Assembly: GCA_020628865.1 (NCBI GenBank)
Contig: JAHDEJ010000015.1
Location: forward strand, 1-54,408
Direction: 5' to 3'
Length of the DNA stretch: 54,408 bases
From: Acidimicrobiales bacterium
Lineage (GTDB): Bacteria > Actinomycetota > Acidimicrobiia > Acidimicrobiales > SHLQ01
Under the pieces are notes generated by a model that made no database searches, was not told the origin of the DNA, and saw only the letters and a program-made list of their open reading frames with translations. This document shows, piece after piece, positions 16,074-28,963 of this stretch. The position numbers were made by a program, and so were the translations under genes. Every line of letters starts with the position of its first letter. The stretch's first letter is position 1.

Positions 16074-16553
16074 TCAGTCTCCCGGCAGGTTGATCAGCTG
16101 CTTTGCCGCATTGCCGACACGGTTGTTCAGGTTCGCCTGACCGGCGACCAGCACCAGTTCGGCCAGCTCCGGGTCGGTGAAGTGTGCACGAGCTCCATCG
16201 ATCAGGTCGCCGTCGAGGTCGTGCGTCGGCCCGCACATCGCATCGGTGATCGCCAACGCCATGCGGGTGCGTTCATCGAACTGGTCGGGCCAACGGTCGG
16301 GGTGATCGAGCGCGTCGATCTCCTTGTCGGTGACCCCTCGTCGCCTCGCCGAGGCAACATGTGCTTCCAGTCAAGTGGGGCACTGGTTGACGATCGACGT
16401 GCGCAGGAAGACGAGCTCCTTGAGCGTGATCGGAATCGCACTGTTCTCTTCCCAGAGGGCGCTGCCGAACGAGCCGTAGGCCGCGCGGGTTCCCTCGACC
16501 ATCGTGAGCGTCTTGCCGAGCGGTTCGCGCGCCGGCTTGGGACGGATGTTCAT
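16074..16553 (-). CDS. AhpD/carboxymuconolactone-decarboxylase-fold selenoprotein (CxxU)
   Basis: 159 residues if the in-frame TGA at 16371-16373 is read as selenocysteine 61. The frame is the same on both sides. The first half (from ATG 16551-16553, MNIRPKPAREPLGKTL) ends LRTSIVNQCPT; after the TGA it continues LEAHVASARRRGVTDKEID and runs on to NNRVGNAAKQLINLPGD. The join recreates the CMD/AhpD signature C-x2-C-x3-H as C58-P-T-U61-x3-H65. That motif is the redox centre of AhpD-type proteins, and Cys/Sec exchange is known in this family. A bacterial SECIS-like hairpin follows the TGA (16340-16358). It starts ten bases after the CoxL-like gene, so the two form an operon. A peroxidase or disulfide reductase role is inferred. 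Confidence 0.85.
16340..16358 (-). promoter_or_regulatory. bSECIS hairpin for the AhpD-like selenoprotein
   Basis: On the mRNA, GTTGCCTC-GGC-GAGGCGAC forms an 8-bp stem with one G-U pair. The apical loop begins with G and lies 20 bases after the UGA, inside the 16-37 base spacing described for bacterial SECIS elements. Confidence 0.75.
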
Positions 16554-21360: not shown

Positions 21361-24300
21361 ATGGAGAGCTTGATGACGTCGCCCGTGCTGCCCTATCGCC
21401 TCGAAGACCGGTACGAGCGTGAGGACGGCCGGGTGCACCTGACCGGCATCCAGGCGCTTGCCCGGATCTGCGTCGAGCAGCTTCGGATGGACCGGGCCGC
21501 AGGCCTGCGCACCGCGGCGCTGCTCTCCGGCTACCCGGGCTCACCGCTGGGCGGTTTCGACATGGAGGTCGGCCGGCTGCTCCGCCAGGTGACCGACCTG
21601 CCGATTGTCCACCAGCCTGCGGTCAACGAGGAGTTGGGGGCGAGCGCAGTGATGGGTTCGCAGCTTGCGGCCGCACGCCCCGACGCGAAGCACGATGGCG
21701 TGGTCGGGTTCTGGTACGGCAAGGCACCCGGGCTGGACCGGGCCACCGACGCCATCCGCCACGGCGTGTTCGCCGGCACCGCCCGACACAGCGGCGCGGT
21801 GGCGCTGGTCGGCGACGACCCGATGGCCAAGTCCTCGACGATGCCGTCGTCGTCGGACGCAGCACTCATCAGCCTCCACATGCCCATCCTCTATCCGGGC
21901 ACCGCGCAGGAGTGCCTGGAGCTCGGACTGCACGCGGTCGCGATCAGCCGAGCGTCGGGGCTCTGGTCGGCCATGAAGATCGTGACCCCGGTCGCCGATG
22001 GCGGTGGCACCGTCGACCTTCCTGTGCTCGACGAGCCGCCGATCCTGCCCGAGCTGGAGGTCGACGGCGTGCCGTGGCGGAACACGCCGAGCGCCGTCTT
22101 CCTCGGCCCACGAATGGTCGATGTCGAGCGCGAATTCCACGAGGTTCGTTCGGTGCTCGCCCATCGATATGGGGCCGAGAACAAGCTGAACCGCGTCACC
22201 GTCGACCCCGAAGACGCCTGGGTCGGGCTGGTGGCCACCGGGTTCACGTACCACCAGTTGCTCGATGCGCTTCGCCGGCTTGGCTTCGCCAACGAAGACG
22301 AGCTCGCTGCGGCCGGCATCCGCCTGCTGCAGCTTCGGATGCCGGTGCCGTTCGACCGCGACCTCGTTCGCCACTTCGCTCGGGGCCTACAAGAGATCGT
22401 CGTGGTCGAGGAGAAGAACCCCTCACTCGAGTGGCTGATCAAGGACGCCCTCTACGGCACGGCGTCGCCCCCTCGGGTGCTCGGCAAGACGCACGAAGAC
22501 GGCCGGCAGCTGATGCGCATGTGGGGCCGCCTCGACGCCGATGCGATCGCGCCCGGCCTTCGGGAACGGCTGGCAGCGAAACTCGATCAACGCATGACCC
22601 CTGCGGCCACCGTGGCGCCGCCGAAGAAGCGGACGCGCATCCCGCTCTCCGTCAACCGCACGCCCTTCTTCTGCTCGGGATGCCCGCACAACTGGGGGAC
22701 GAAGGTACCGGAGGGAACGCTGGTGGGGGCCGGCACCGGCTGTCACGGCATGTCGCTTCTCATGGATCCCGAACGCGTCGGCGAGACCATCGGCATCACT
22801 GCGATGGGCAACGAGGGGGCGCACTGGATCGGCATGTCGCCGTTCGTGGACACGCAGCACATCGTGCAGAACTTCGGCGACGGCACGTTCTTCCACTCGG
22901 GCCAGCTTGCGGTGCAGGCGGCCATTGGCGCGGGCGCCGACATCACCTTCAAAATCCTCTACAACGACACCGTCGCCATGACCGGAGGCCAAGACGCCAC
23001 CCACCAGATCGGCGTGCCCGCGTTGTGCCGGGCGCTGCTCGCCCATGGCGTCGCCCGCGTGCTGGTCACCACGGACGATGTGAAGGGCTACGACCGGCGG
23101 GCCCTGCCCGACGGAGTCGACCTCTGGGACCGCACCCGAATTCTCGAGGCGCAAGATCTGCTCGCCGACGTGCCCGGCGTGACGGTCCTCATCCACCATC
23201 AGGGCTGTGCTGCCGAACTTCGCCGAGATCGCAAGCGTGGTCGCATCGAGACTCCGACGGAACGCATCGTCATCAACCATCGCATCTGCGAGGGATGTGG
23301 CGACTGCGGCGACGTGAGCAACTGCTTGTCGGTCCAGCCGCTCGACACCCCGCTCGGCCGCAAGACGACGATCGATCAGGCCAGCTGCAACATCGATCGC
23401 TCCTGCCTTCAGGGCGACTGCCCGTCGTTCATGACGGTCCAGGTCACACCGGGCTCGAGTACCGCATCCGACGGCGCACCTGCCGTGCCAGCGCCGCCGA
23501 CGAGCGACCGCCGGCACGTGGCACTGCGGCTCGCAGGCATCGGAGGAACCGGCGTGGTGACCGTTGCACAGATTCTGGCGACAGCAGCGATGTTCGATGG
23601 GTGGGATGTGCAGGGGCTGGACCAGACCGGCCTCTCACAGAAGGCAGGTCCGGTGGTCTCGGACCTGGTGCTCACCCGCCAGGGAGCGACCGCCTCGAAC
23701 GTGATCGGCGCCGGTGAAGCCGACGCCGTCATCGCGTTCGACCAGATGGTCGCGGCCAGCGACCGCGTCGTCGGGGTCATGGGCCCGGCGACGCGGGTCG
23801 TCGGTTCCACTCACCAGACCCCGACCGGAGCGATCGTCGCCGATCCGTCGATCCCCTACCCCGCCGCCGCCGATTTCGACGAGCGACTCTCTCGCGGGCA
23901 GGAGGCTCCCGATCGGTGGATGAACGCCGCCGACCTCGCCGAGCGACTGGCCGGCTCGCCTGCGGCGGCGAATGTGTTCGTGCTCGGCGCTGCCGTCCAA
24001 GTGGGCGCGGTCCCGATCGCCGTCGACCACATCGAAGAGGCGATCCGGCTCAACGGGGTGGCCGTCGATGCCAACCTCGCTGCGCTCGGTTGGGGGCGGG
24101 CATGGGCCGCGGATCCCGCGGCGGTGGAGGCAACGGCCAGACGCCACGGAACGGGAGCCCCGGAGGTGGTGGTCGCCGACCTCCCGGACGACCTCCAGCG
24201 CCGGATCGACGCTCTGCCGTCCGCCGTTCGCGAGCATGTGCAGATTCGGACGGCCGATCTTGTCGAGTGGCAGGACGCCGCATGGGCGGCTCGCTTCCTG

Positions 24301-24849
24301 GCGACCATCGAGCGCATCGCTGCCGCCGAAGAGACCGCTGTTGCGGGCTCCGTCGACCTGACCAGGTCGGCGGCTCATGGTCTCCACCGGTTCATGGCCT
24401 ACAAGGACGAATACGAGGTGGCGCGGCTCATGGTGGCGCCGGAAGCCCAGCAGTCCGTCCGAGCAGCCGGGGGCAAGGTGTCGACAATGGCTTTCCACCT
24501 GCATCCCCCGCTACTGCGAGCGATTGGGGTCGACCGCAAGCTTCGGTTCACCGCCCGCTCCCGACGCTCCTTCGCCCTGCTTGCGAAAGGAAAGCGCCTT
24601 CGGGGCACGATTGCGGACCCGTTCGGGCGGGCGGAGGTCCGTCGAGTCGAGCGTGAGCTCATCGACGAGTACGAGCAGCTCCTCGACACGTTGCTCGCCG
24701 GACTCCGGGCCGAGCCATCAGCCGATCGCTTGCAACAGGCCGTGGAGATCGCCGATCTCGCCGACTCGGTCCGCGGGTTCGAGGACCTGAAGCTCCGCCG
24801 AGCCGCCGAGTACCGATCGACCGTCGCCGCCGCCCTCCAGCACTGGTAG
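21361..24849 (+). CDS. Indolepyruvate:ferredoxin oxidoreductase, fused subunits
   Basis: 1162 residues, the length of the fused IorA/IorB-type enzyme of actinobacteria and proteobacteria. It begins with a 2-oxoacid:acceptor pyrimidine-binding domain (ALLSGYPGSPLGGFDMEV). A TPP-binding domain (GAGTGCHGMSLLM and AMGNEGAHWIG) follows, then a cysteine cluster region (ICEGCGDCGDVSNC, C-x4-C-x4-C) and a C-terminal gamma domain (LAGIGGTGVVTVAQIL, from about residue 723). It oxidatively decarboxylates aryl- or branched-chain 2-oxoacids to acyl-CoA, reducing ferredoxin. The adjacent divergent Lrp regulator fits amino-acid catabolism. It is oxygen-sensitive chemistry, but the fused form is common in aerobes. 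Confidence 0.92.
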   Translation: MESLMTSPVLPYRLEDRYEREDGRVHLTGIQALARICVEQLRMDRAAGLRTAALLSGYPGSPLGGFDMEVGRLLRQVTDLPIVHQPAVNEELGASAVMGSQLAAARPDAKHDGVVGFWYGKAPGLDRATDAIRHGVFAGTARHSGAVALVGDDPMAKSSTMPSSSDAALISLHMPILYPGTAQECLELGLHAVAISRASGLWSAMKIVTPVADGGGTVDLPVLDEPPILPELEVDGVPWRNTPSAVFLGPRMVDVEREFHEVRSVLAHRYGAENKLNRVTVDPEDAWVGLVATGFTYHQLLDALRRLGFANEDELAAAGIRLLQLRMPVPFDRDLVRHFARGLQEIVVVEEKNPSLEWLIKDALYGTASPPRVLGKTHEDGRQLMRMWGRLDADAIAPGLRERLAAKLDQRMTPAATVAPPKKRTRIPLSVNRTPFFCSGCPHNWGTKVPEGTLVGAGTGCHGMSLLMDPERVGETIGITAMGNEGAHWIGMSPFVDTQHIVQNFGDGTFFHSGQLAVQAAIGAGADITFKILYNDTVAMTGGQDATHQIGVPALCRALLAHGVARVLVTTDDVKGYDRRALPDGVDLWDRTRILEAQDLLADVPGVTVLIHHQGCAAELRRDRKRGRIETPTERIVINHRICEGCGDCGDVSNCLSVQPLDTPLGRKTTIDQASCNIDRSCLQGDCPSFMTVQVTPGSSTASDGAPAVPAPPTSDRRHVALRLAGIGGTGVVTVAQILATAAMFDGWDVQGLDQTGLSQKAGPVVSDLVLTRQGATASNVIGAGEADAVIAFDQMVAASDRVVGVMGPATRVVGSTHQTPTGAIVADPSIPYPAAADFDERLSRGQEAPDRWMNAADLAERLAGSPAAANVFVLGAAVQVGAVPIAVDHIEEAIRLNGVAVDANLAALGWGRAWAADPAAVEATARRHGTGAPEVVVADLPDDLQRRIDALPSAVREHVQIRTADLVEWQDAAWAARFLATIERIAAAEETAVAGSVDLTRSAAHGLHRFMAYKDEYEVARLMVAPEAQQSVRAAGGKVSTMAFHLHPPLLRAIGVDRKLRFTARSRRSFALLAKGKRLRGTIADPFGRAEVRRVERELIDEYEQLLDTLLAGLRAEPSADRLQQAVEIADLADSVRGFEDLKLRRAAEYRSTVAAALQHW

Positions 24850-26667: not shown

Positions 26668-27132
26668 TCACTTACGTGGCGAGATCGGGAGCTCAGTTGT
26701 GCGCTTGATGCTCTTCATCGCGAGCTGCGAAGTGAGCTTCTGCACATAGGGCAGGTTTGCCAAGGCCTCCATGTACAACACCTCGAACTGCTCCGGCCCC
26801 GCAGCGACCACACGGAGGAGGTAGTCGGGCTGCCCCATCATCCTGGCGACCTCCACGATCTCGGGCACATCGAGCACGGCCGCCTCAAACTCGAGCAACG
26901 ATGCATGAGTGACGGCCTCGAGCGTGACCCAAACCAACGGCTCGAAGCTGCAGCCGACTGCCTCCCGATCGAGCACTGCCGCATAACCGGAGATCACGCC
27001 CGTCGACTCGAGGTTTCGAACACGGCGCAGACAAGGTGAGGGACTCAAACCCACCGCCTCGGCGAGTTCGTTGTTCGGAATGCGAGCATTCCGCTGCAGC
27101 TGGCTCAGAATTGCGCGATCGATATCATCCAC
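26668..27132 (-). CDS. Lrp/AsnC-family transcriptional regulator
   Basis: 154 residues from a GTG at 27130-27132. VDDIDRAILSQLQRNARIPN followed by LAEAVGLSPSPCLRRVRNLE is the AsnC HTH. The RAM domain carries MMGQPDYLLRVVAAG, close to the classical Lrp G-x-x-D-Y-L-L-R-V core. It diverges from the UGSC selenoprotein gene across 79 bases, so that gene is the likeliest target. The 3' end abuts the palindromic repeat cluster. Confidence 0.9.
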   Translation of the reverse strand: MDDIDRAILSQLQRNARIPNNELAEAVGLSPSPCLRRVRNLESTGVISGYAAVLDREAVGCSFEPLVWVTLEAVTHASLLEFEAAVLDVPEIVEVARMMGQPDYLLRVVAAGPEQFEVLYMEALANLPYVQKLTSQLAMKSIKRTTELPISPRK

Positions 27133-27211: not shown

Positions 27212-28963
27212 ATGACCGCGCAGTACGAGACCGTCTGGCCCCGCTCTCCGCAGGGGGTGCAGCAACAACGACGGGCGCAGCGTCTCGACTCGCTGGACAA
27301 TGTCCGGGTCGCCTTCCTCTGGGACTACCTGTTCCGCGGGGACGAGCTCTTCCCGGTTCTGGCCGACGAGCTCCGCCGACGACACCCGAGCATCGACATC
27401 GTGAGCTACGAGGAGTTCGGCAACCTGCACGGTGCCGACGAGAAGATGCGCCTGGCCCAGCTGCCGACCGAACTGCGAGATCGGAGTGTCGACGCCGTCG
27501 TCTCCGGGATGGGGTGTTGAGGCAGCTGTACGCCCGCCGTGATGCGGGCCGCAATCGCCGCCGAGAGCGCCGGCATCCCGTCCGTCTCGATCGTTTGTGA
27601 GGGGTTCGCCGGCCAAGCCGCGGCAACCGCACGGGGCATCGGCTACGACGAACTCCCGCTCGCGGTGACCGTTGGCCATGTCGATGCCCAATCACAGACA
27701 GAGATGATCGAGAACTTCCTGTCGCAGACCGTCGACGTGATCGTCGCTGGCCTCACCGACCCGACGCCGGCAGCCGGCGACGATGCAGAAGCGGAACCAT
27801 CGGCGCTCGAGATTGCCGCGGCCGGAACGCTCGACGAGATCAACGACCGGTTCGCCGAGCTTGGATGGAGCGACGGAAACGCGATTCTCCCTCCGACCAT
27901 CGAGCGGGTGGAACGCTTCCTCGACGGTTCGGGCCACGACCCCTGGAAGACGCTCGGAATCGCCCCCTCGTCAGGTCGAGACCTGACCGTCTGGTCGATT
28001 GCCGTGAACGCGGTCATGGCCGGTTGCCAACCAGAACACCTGCCGATCCTGCTGGCGCTGACCGAGGTGCTCGCCGACCCGGCCTACGGGGCCGAGCATT
28101 CCGGCAATACGACCGGCGCCGATGCGCTGATCATCCTCGACGGACCGAACGTGGAAGCCCTCGGCTTCAACTCGGGTCCGGGAGCACAGCGTGAAGGCAC
28201 ACGAGCGAACACCGCCGTCGGTCGATGGCTTCGCTTGTACCTGCGAAATGTCTTCGGGTTCACGTCGGACGAGCTGGACAAGGCAACATTCGGAAACCCA
28301 GCCCGGCCGGTCCTGGCCGAAGATCAGAGCTGTCTCGACGAGATCGGCTGGCCGTCGATCGCACAGCAGCTCGGCGGCTCCGCCAACGTGGACGCGGTCA
28401 CCGTCGCCCGCATGAACAGCGGGATCATGATCGGCAGCGTGTTCGGCTCGACCCCGGACAAGATCGTGCCGTATCTCGCCAACGGGTTGACACGTTCTGC
28501 GGGGTGGGACCTCACCCACCTCCACGGCTTGGGCCAGGACCAGTTCCAACCACTTCTGGTGCTTTCGCCCTTGCTGGCGCGGACCTTCGCTGCGTCCGGC
28601 TGGAACCTCGATCGCGTGCAGCTGGCCCTCTTCGATCACGCCCGCATTCCCGCCACGTTGTTCGAACGGTTCATCGGCGAATGGTCGAACCTGACGGCGG
28701 GCCGTCGACGGCTCGTCGACCTGGCCCGAGAGGGGGACCTCCCCGACGTGTTCGGCGTGTCCGACGACCCGGAGCGGCTGGTTCCAATCGTGACCCGACC
28801 AGAGCGTATTCGGGTTGCGGTGAGCGGAGACCCGAACCGGGCGAACGCGTTTGCCTTCAGCAATGACGGTCCGCACGGGTGGTGGACAACGAAGCCGATC
28901 GACCACACGCCGGCGAGCGACCTCGTTTGCAGCATCGGGGGTGCCTGCACCCCTCCCGCCTGA
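27212..28963 (+). CDS. UGSC-family selenoprotein, in-frame UGA decoded as Sec103
   Basis: 583 residues if the TGA at 27518-27520 is read through. The frame is continuous: residues 1-102 end VVSGMGC, the TGA follows, then GSCTPAVMRAAIAAESAGIP and the remaining 480 residues. The resulting GMGC-U-GSC is exactly the motif that names the UGSC (seleno)protein family, in which Sec or Cys occupies the first position. The N-terminal domain (VAFLWDYLFRGDELFP, then the U-G-S-C site and GFAGQAA) looks Rossmann-like. The long C-terminal domain (about residues 200-583) is of unknown function. A SECIS-type hairpin follows the UGA at 27532-27549. Function in the family is unassigned; thiol/selenol redox chemistry is inferred. 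Confidence 0.88.
27532..27549 (+). promoter_or_regulatory. bSECIS hairpin for the UGSC selenoprotein
   Basis: GCCCGC-CGTGAT-GCGGGC forms a perfect 6-bp stem and 6-base loop with G as the second loop base. The loop begins 17 bases after the UGA, within the bacterial SECIS window. Confidence 0.7.

Follow-up and report, generated by a model that had tools for sequence, protein, structure and literature searches.

A two-domain UGSC selenoprotein gene of an Acidimicrobiales bacterium and its putative distant kinship to the PrdB/GrdB selenoproteins

Introduction

UGSC-containing (seleno)proteins were reported by Zhang and Gladyshev in 2008 (PMC2398784), and the parts of that paper that deal with them also describe a fusion to an unknown domain, 'Unknown_1', and propose a thioredoxin-like (Trx-like) fold for the family. 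The family (PF24696, NCBIfam NF041046) is known already, with an uncharacterised function, and the gene described here adds a two-domain member to it. The other described selenoproteins of importance here are GrdB and PrdB (PF07355), of glycine and D-proline reductase, which work with a pyruvoyl-type substrate subunit (GrdE/PrdA). The passages on UGSC in the selenoprotein papers hold no statement on a relation between these two groups. The present study focused on a gene in a stretch of 54,408 nucleotides of an Acidimicrobiales bacterium (the window), the features of which are collected in Table 1.

Table 1. Positions of the features of the window that are discussed in the text
Feature	Position	Strand	Basis or remark
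Sec-containing UGSC-family gene	27212..28963	+	583 residues plus stop; UGSC domain at about residues 1-186, fused to partner domain at about 201-583
UGSC domain (PF24696)	27230..27769	+	profile match; modelled parallel alpha/beta fold
In-frame TGA, codon 103 (GMGC-U-GSC, UxxC motif)	27518..27520	+	read as selenocysteine
bSECIS hairpin, 6-bp stem GCCCGC (27532-27537)/GCGGGC (27544-27549), loop CGTGAT	27532..27549	+	frozen synonymous sites, 40/40 genes
C-terminal partner domain, near-invariant Cys272 (VMAGC)	27812..28960	+	sequence conservation
Lrp/AsnC-family regulator, divergent from UGSC gene	26668..27132	-	PF13404, PF01037
AhpD-like CMD selenoprotein, CPTU, TGA 16373-16371	16074-16550	-	PF02627

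Results

The initial annotation had recognised a TGA at 27518 within GMGC-U-GSC and a frame running on for 480 codons, and the translation agrees: the TGA is the sole internal stop of the frame (context VVSGMGC-U-GSCTPAVMRA), and 480 open codons follow it up to the end codon, TGA at 28961-28963, which is taken as the true stop because homologs terminate nearby with TGA, TAG or TAA. A gene caller that reads TGA only as a stop would split this gene. Membership of the UGSC family, also claimed at the outset, is supported by a PF24696 match that spans the TGA. With the TGA read through, residues 7-182 score 103.7 bits (gathering cut-off 25), and the sides taken alone score 30.3 bits (upstream, profile positions 2-92) and 36.6 bits (downstream, positions 101-171); the positions are contiguous, and the joined and split scores place the match across the TGA far beyond chance. 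The NCBIfam equivalog NF041046 (UGSC_fam) gives 57.2 bits, below its curated cut-off of 125, and the window protein is therefore assigned to a divergent subgroup of the same wider family.

Across 84,980 species genomes, 52 related loci were detected, mostly from Acidimicrobiales, with some from Betaproteobacteria, Alphaproteobacteria and Chloroflexi. Wherever the match extended to the Sec site in a single unbroken frame, TGA was found there without any other stop (the Sec site of locus L060 was read separately from the others), and in all 40 genes compared the TGA is present at this site as the only internal stop. In a codon alignment of these 40 genes, used for comparing rates and four-fold degenerate sites, the parts before and after the TGA evolve alike (e.g., 71% and 76% identity to the relative L021), with third positions varying most. 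When homologs were aligned over the TGA, as had been recommended, the UGSC proteins L078, L094, L097 and L098 were found to carry Cys in place of Sec. The mechanical ORF present at 27539-28963 would fit a UGSC gene truncated at 27520 and followed by a separate ORF (e.g., from GTG 27539), or a sequencing error, with no selenoprotein at all, but this is extremely improbable: TGA and hairpin are both kept in 40/40 genes, which refutes truncation and error on conservation grounds, the coding-type evolution proceeds at an equal rate on both sides, the genome holds Sec machinery, and Cys replaces Sec in relatives. Reading of the TGA as Trp was likewise rejected, because the relatives have Cys and not Trp at this position and the gene's own stop is a TGA. 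Separately, the protein L103 (G136:C25) is a fusion of a UGSC-like domain and partner in which Met-Gly-Thr-Ser replaces U-G-S-C, apparently with neither Sec nor Cys.

A perfect 6-bp stem had been placed 17 bases after the TGA. The hairpin itself stands, but 17 nt is the distance to the start of its loop, and the stem begins 11 nt after the TGA. Of the four-fold sites, 45 have an invariant residue, and at only five of these (T107, P108, A109, V110 and R112) is the third base identical across all 40 genes; all five lie in or beside the stem or loop, while at none of the 38 such sites outside the hairpin is the same third base kept in at least 97% (median 51%). The confinement of frozen third bases to the hairpin therefore shows directly that the RNA is under selection. 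Distant UGSC genes have another stem, GTCGTGG/CCACGAC (7 bp), at nearly the same position; aligned over nine sequences, it shows two compensatory changes, and 93.7% of its cells are paired; its shuffle control (25 of 500) is only suggestive with so few sequences. An Rfam search of the window gave no match.

In the host genome (5.36 Mb, 95.9% complete), which was searched family by family, contig C64 carries SelA (380 bits) with SelB (281 bits) directly after it, C106 carries SelD (359 bits), and a tRNA-Sec with anticodon TCA (65.1 bits) was located on C13. SelA, SelB, SelD and tRNA-Sec(UCA), the components that bacterial selenoproteins require, have thus all been located, so that absence of the machinery no longer stands against the gene, and a working Sec system is very likely, as the initial annotation had expected. 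The view that Sec use is notable for an actinobacterium of this kind is to be softened, since UGSC genes with TGA are found in many genomes of the same order, where Sec use is not exceptional. The further selenoprotein that had been noticed 11 kb away is real (AhpD-like, Table 1), and the genome also has a second UGSC gene, single-domain and with TGA, on contig C106. Because PF24696 matches across the TGA, the Sec machinery is present, the TGA is kept in 40/40 genes and five hairpin sites are frozen, the in-frame UGA, as judged from comparative sequence data, really does encode selenocysteine, and the original call of a selenoprotein is borne out.

Other Sec-related genes were seen in the same genome. 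SelD (C106:117069-117992, L010) is itself a selenoprotein, with an in-frame TGA before GCKLAPGE, and the region 146181-146483 of contig C44 (L074) contains a PrdB-like gene whose in-frame TGA lies in LLVPV-U-PVCHQSV (UPVC), with more PF07355 matches on C44 and C18.

The C-terminal domain had been described as lacking an assigned function. It did remain without a name in Pfam and NCBIfam, where no family match was obtained, but it fits the fusion described in the UGSC passages of the 2008 paper, and we infer that it is the 'Unknown_1' of that source (PMC2398784). D221, N266, C272, R338, D356 and E370 are conserved in it, and a Cys near the C-terminus is kept in the Acidimicrobiales fusion proteins. 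A PDB sequence search with its profile (A1) gave no match. Structure prediction, a check proposed in the initial annotation, gave a confident model of the domain alone (pLDDT 88, pTM 0.89) without a clear PDB match, and Foldseek and VIA revealed no clear known relative (best Z 4.9). Candidates rejected as noise-level matches were class I fumarase (Z 4.9), thiamine-monophosphate kinase and cyclic amide hydrolase, and profile comparison ruled out a GrdE (hhalign 0.1% against GrdE-like ORFs upstream of GrdB, which were identified by position only) and a relative of GrdB or PrdB (0.6% and 0.3%).

Pairing of the two domains was surveyed in a phylum sample, beginning from PF24696 alone. The partner domain is fused or adjacent in 29/29 of the UGSC loci so found; 27 of the 396 genomes sampled have UGSC over the cut-off, all 27 with the partner domain, and just one further genome of the 396 (G183) has a strong partner-domain match without UGSC. 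By this co-occurrence across genomes, UGSC and its partner domain form an obligate pair. In G183 (C272), several partner-domain pieces occur in frames of 664-782 aa, and no UGSC was found in that genome. The separate partner genes of several Acidimicrobiales begin with a CxxC domain, the profile of which (A4) found only thioredoxins among its 60 best PDB matches (best E 3.4e-6); the L082 row of this alignment, having been excised in the wrong frame, counts as noise. In the Betaproteobacteria L057, L059 and L060, two or three UGSC-partner copies lie near each other among TctC genes, a local expansion.

The full-length protein was modelled with AF2 (pLDDT 88, pTM 0.88). Over residues 27-186, strands and helices alternate in the Rossmann manner, forming a parallel alpha/beta fold with Sec103 right after the third core strand and Cys106 opening the next helix, and the VIA neighbours of the UGSC domain are PurE-like and similar Rossmann-type alpha/beta proteins (Z about 10). 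A general thiol-redox selenoprotein (a thioredoxin-like reductase or peroxidase) was suggested for the family in the 2008 passages (PMC2398784), and would be in keeping with a UxxC at a helix start and with the thioredoxin domain borne by the separate partners; on this reading, the partner would be a protein substrate or docking module. This is nevertheless unlikely in view of the parallel beta-alpha alternation, the site of Sec after the third core strand, the Rossmann-type neighbours, and a profile score of 0.8% with thioredoxin against 92.9% with PrdB; that no Trx fold appears in the VIA list does not by itself prove the point.

The latter scores come from hhalign comparisons of 79 UGSC domains with the Sec regions of PrdB-like proteins (probability 92.9%, E 3.8e-7) and GrdB (probability 85.5%, E 5.7e-6), these pairwise E-values not being database-calibrated. 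Both alignments place U on U and UxxC on UxxC, the PrdB score persists once the UxxC motif is masked, and the controls stayed low (reversed <= 0.5%, thioredoxin 0.8%, partner domain 0.2%, GrdE 10.8%). The link to GrdB is weaker in some subsets (28.7% for one clade), and the window protein had no PF07355 match with the threshold relaxed to E 10, the PF07355 matches of the genome lying elsewhere. From profile similarity, the UGSC domain is read as remotely homologous to the GrdB/PrdB Sec domain, and not as a member of that family.

The Lrp/AsnC regulator is the only recurrent neighbour in the Acidimicrobiales loci, being directly upstream in nine (L021, L022, L030, L039, L040, L042, L052, L054 and L056; copies 60-78% identical). 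TctC solute-binding genes adjoin the betaproteobacterial copies, and the L061 locus has Asp/Glu racemase and lyase genes; across phyla, the neighbour genes are not conserved. Such neighbours hint that the substrate is a small carboxylate or resembles an amino acid. The mycothiol-isomerase-like gene downstream (29012) was discarded as a functional neighbour, having been seen only in the near-identical L020. Elsewhere in the window, 21361-24849 (+) encodes a large TPP/POR/DUF6537 protein of the indolepyruvate ferredoxin oxidoreductase type, possibly amino-acid-related.

Discussion

Its apparent distant kinship to the selenoproteins of glycine and proline reductase suggests that the UGSC protein is probably a selenium-dependent catabolic reductase. 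We consider it somewhat probable that it is a GrdB/PrdB-like Sec enzyme that is recycled by thioredoxin and whose substrate is a small carboxylate or a compound resembling an amino acid, with the chemistry modelled on those enzymes. The partner domain would bind the substrate, the selenolate of Sec103 would attack an electrophilic carbon, and reductive cleavage might follow, by analogy with glycine or D-proline reductase. The Se intermediate could be resolved by Cys106 through a selenenylsulfide, and the selenol would be regenerated by a thiol reductant, of the thioredoxin type or another, this reductant presumably being fused in the two-gene relatives and separate for the window protein. Expression may be controlled by the adjacent Lrp/AsnC regulator upon binding of a small ligand.

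An alternative is a Sec-dependent enzyme without net reduction (a lyase, hydrolase or dehalogenase), in which Sec would serve as nucleophile and the partner as main catalyst. In its favour, the partner weakly resembles both class I fumarase and the cyclic amide hydrolases (Z <= 4.9) and has the conserved residues listed above (D221 to E370), and cleavage of the C-F bond of fluoroacetate has been proposed for GrdB-like proteins (PMC10838667). It is quite unlikely, given that the fold matches do not rise above noise and the thioredoxin partner points to redox turnover.

For the reductase reading, a wider view is possible, if a little short of probable: together with its partner, UGSC may represent a class of GrdB/PrdB-type Sec reductases that has so far gone uncharacterised, in which the substrate domain has a new fold and the thioredoxin is its own, and which works outside Stickland fermentation in free-living bacteria that are probably aerobic. 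What is added here includes the obligate partner, the fusion to thioredoxin and the proposed relation to PrdB/GrdB, and these turn an abundant orphan selenoprotein into the subject of a concrete hypothesis, with UGSC and partner as a ready two-component system for expression and assay.

Compared with described systems, the window protein shares with the UGSC family (PF24696/NF041046) the conserved UGSC motif, the bSECIS and a domain match that covers the whole profile, and differs in belonging to a GCUGSCTPA subgroup; of the Sec or Cys that the family carries in U/C-G-S-C, with a bSECIS when encoded by TGA, it has the Sec form together with its hairpin. The Trx-like fold suggested in the 2008 passages (PMC2398784) is not borne out by its model, which is Rossmann-like. 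The AhpD-like CxxU selenoprotein, the other Sec gene of the window, presumably uses the same decoding machinery but belongs to an unrelated family. To our knowledge, Acidimicrobiales and Betaproteobacteria, in which the window's UGSC subgroup occurs, are not known as Stickland fermenters, whereas PrdB and GrdB belong to D-proline and glycine reductase. With these the UGSC domain shares profile-level similarity around UxxC and the order strand-U-helix-(E..GIP)-strand, the motif itself being UGSC in the window protein, UPxC in PrdB-like proteins and UGTG in the GrdB found in this analysis. GrdB has an N-terminal part covered by PF07355 that UGSC lacks, and in place of a pyruvoyl-type subunit UGSC has a partner that is not GrdE-like, so the reaction need not be identical to that of glycine reductase. 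Since the homology is remote, it is more fitting to say that UGSC works like GrdB/PrdB than that it is one of them.
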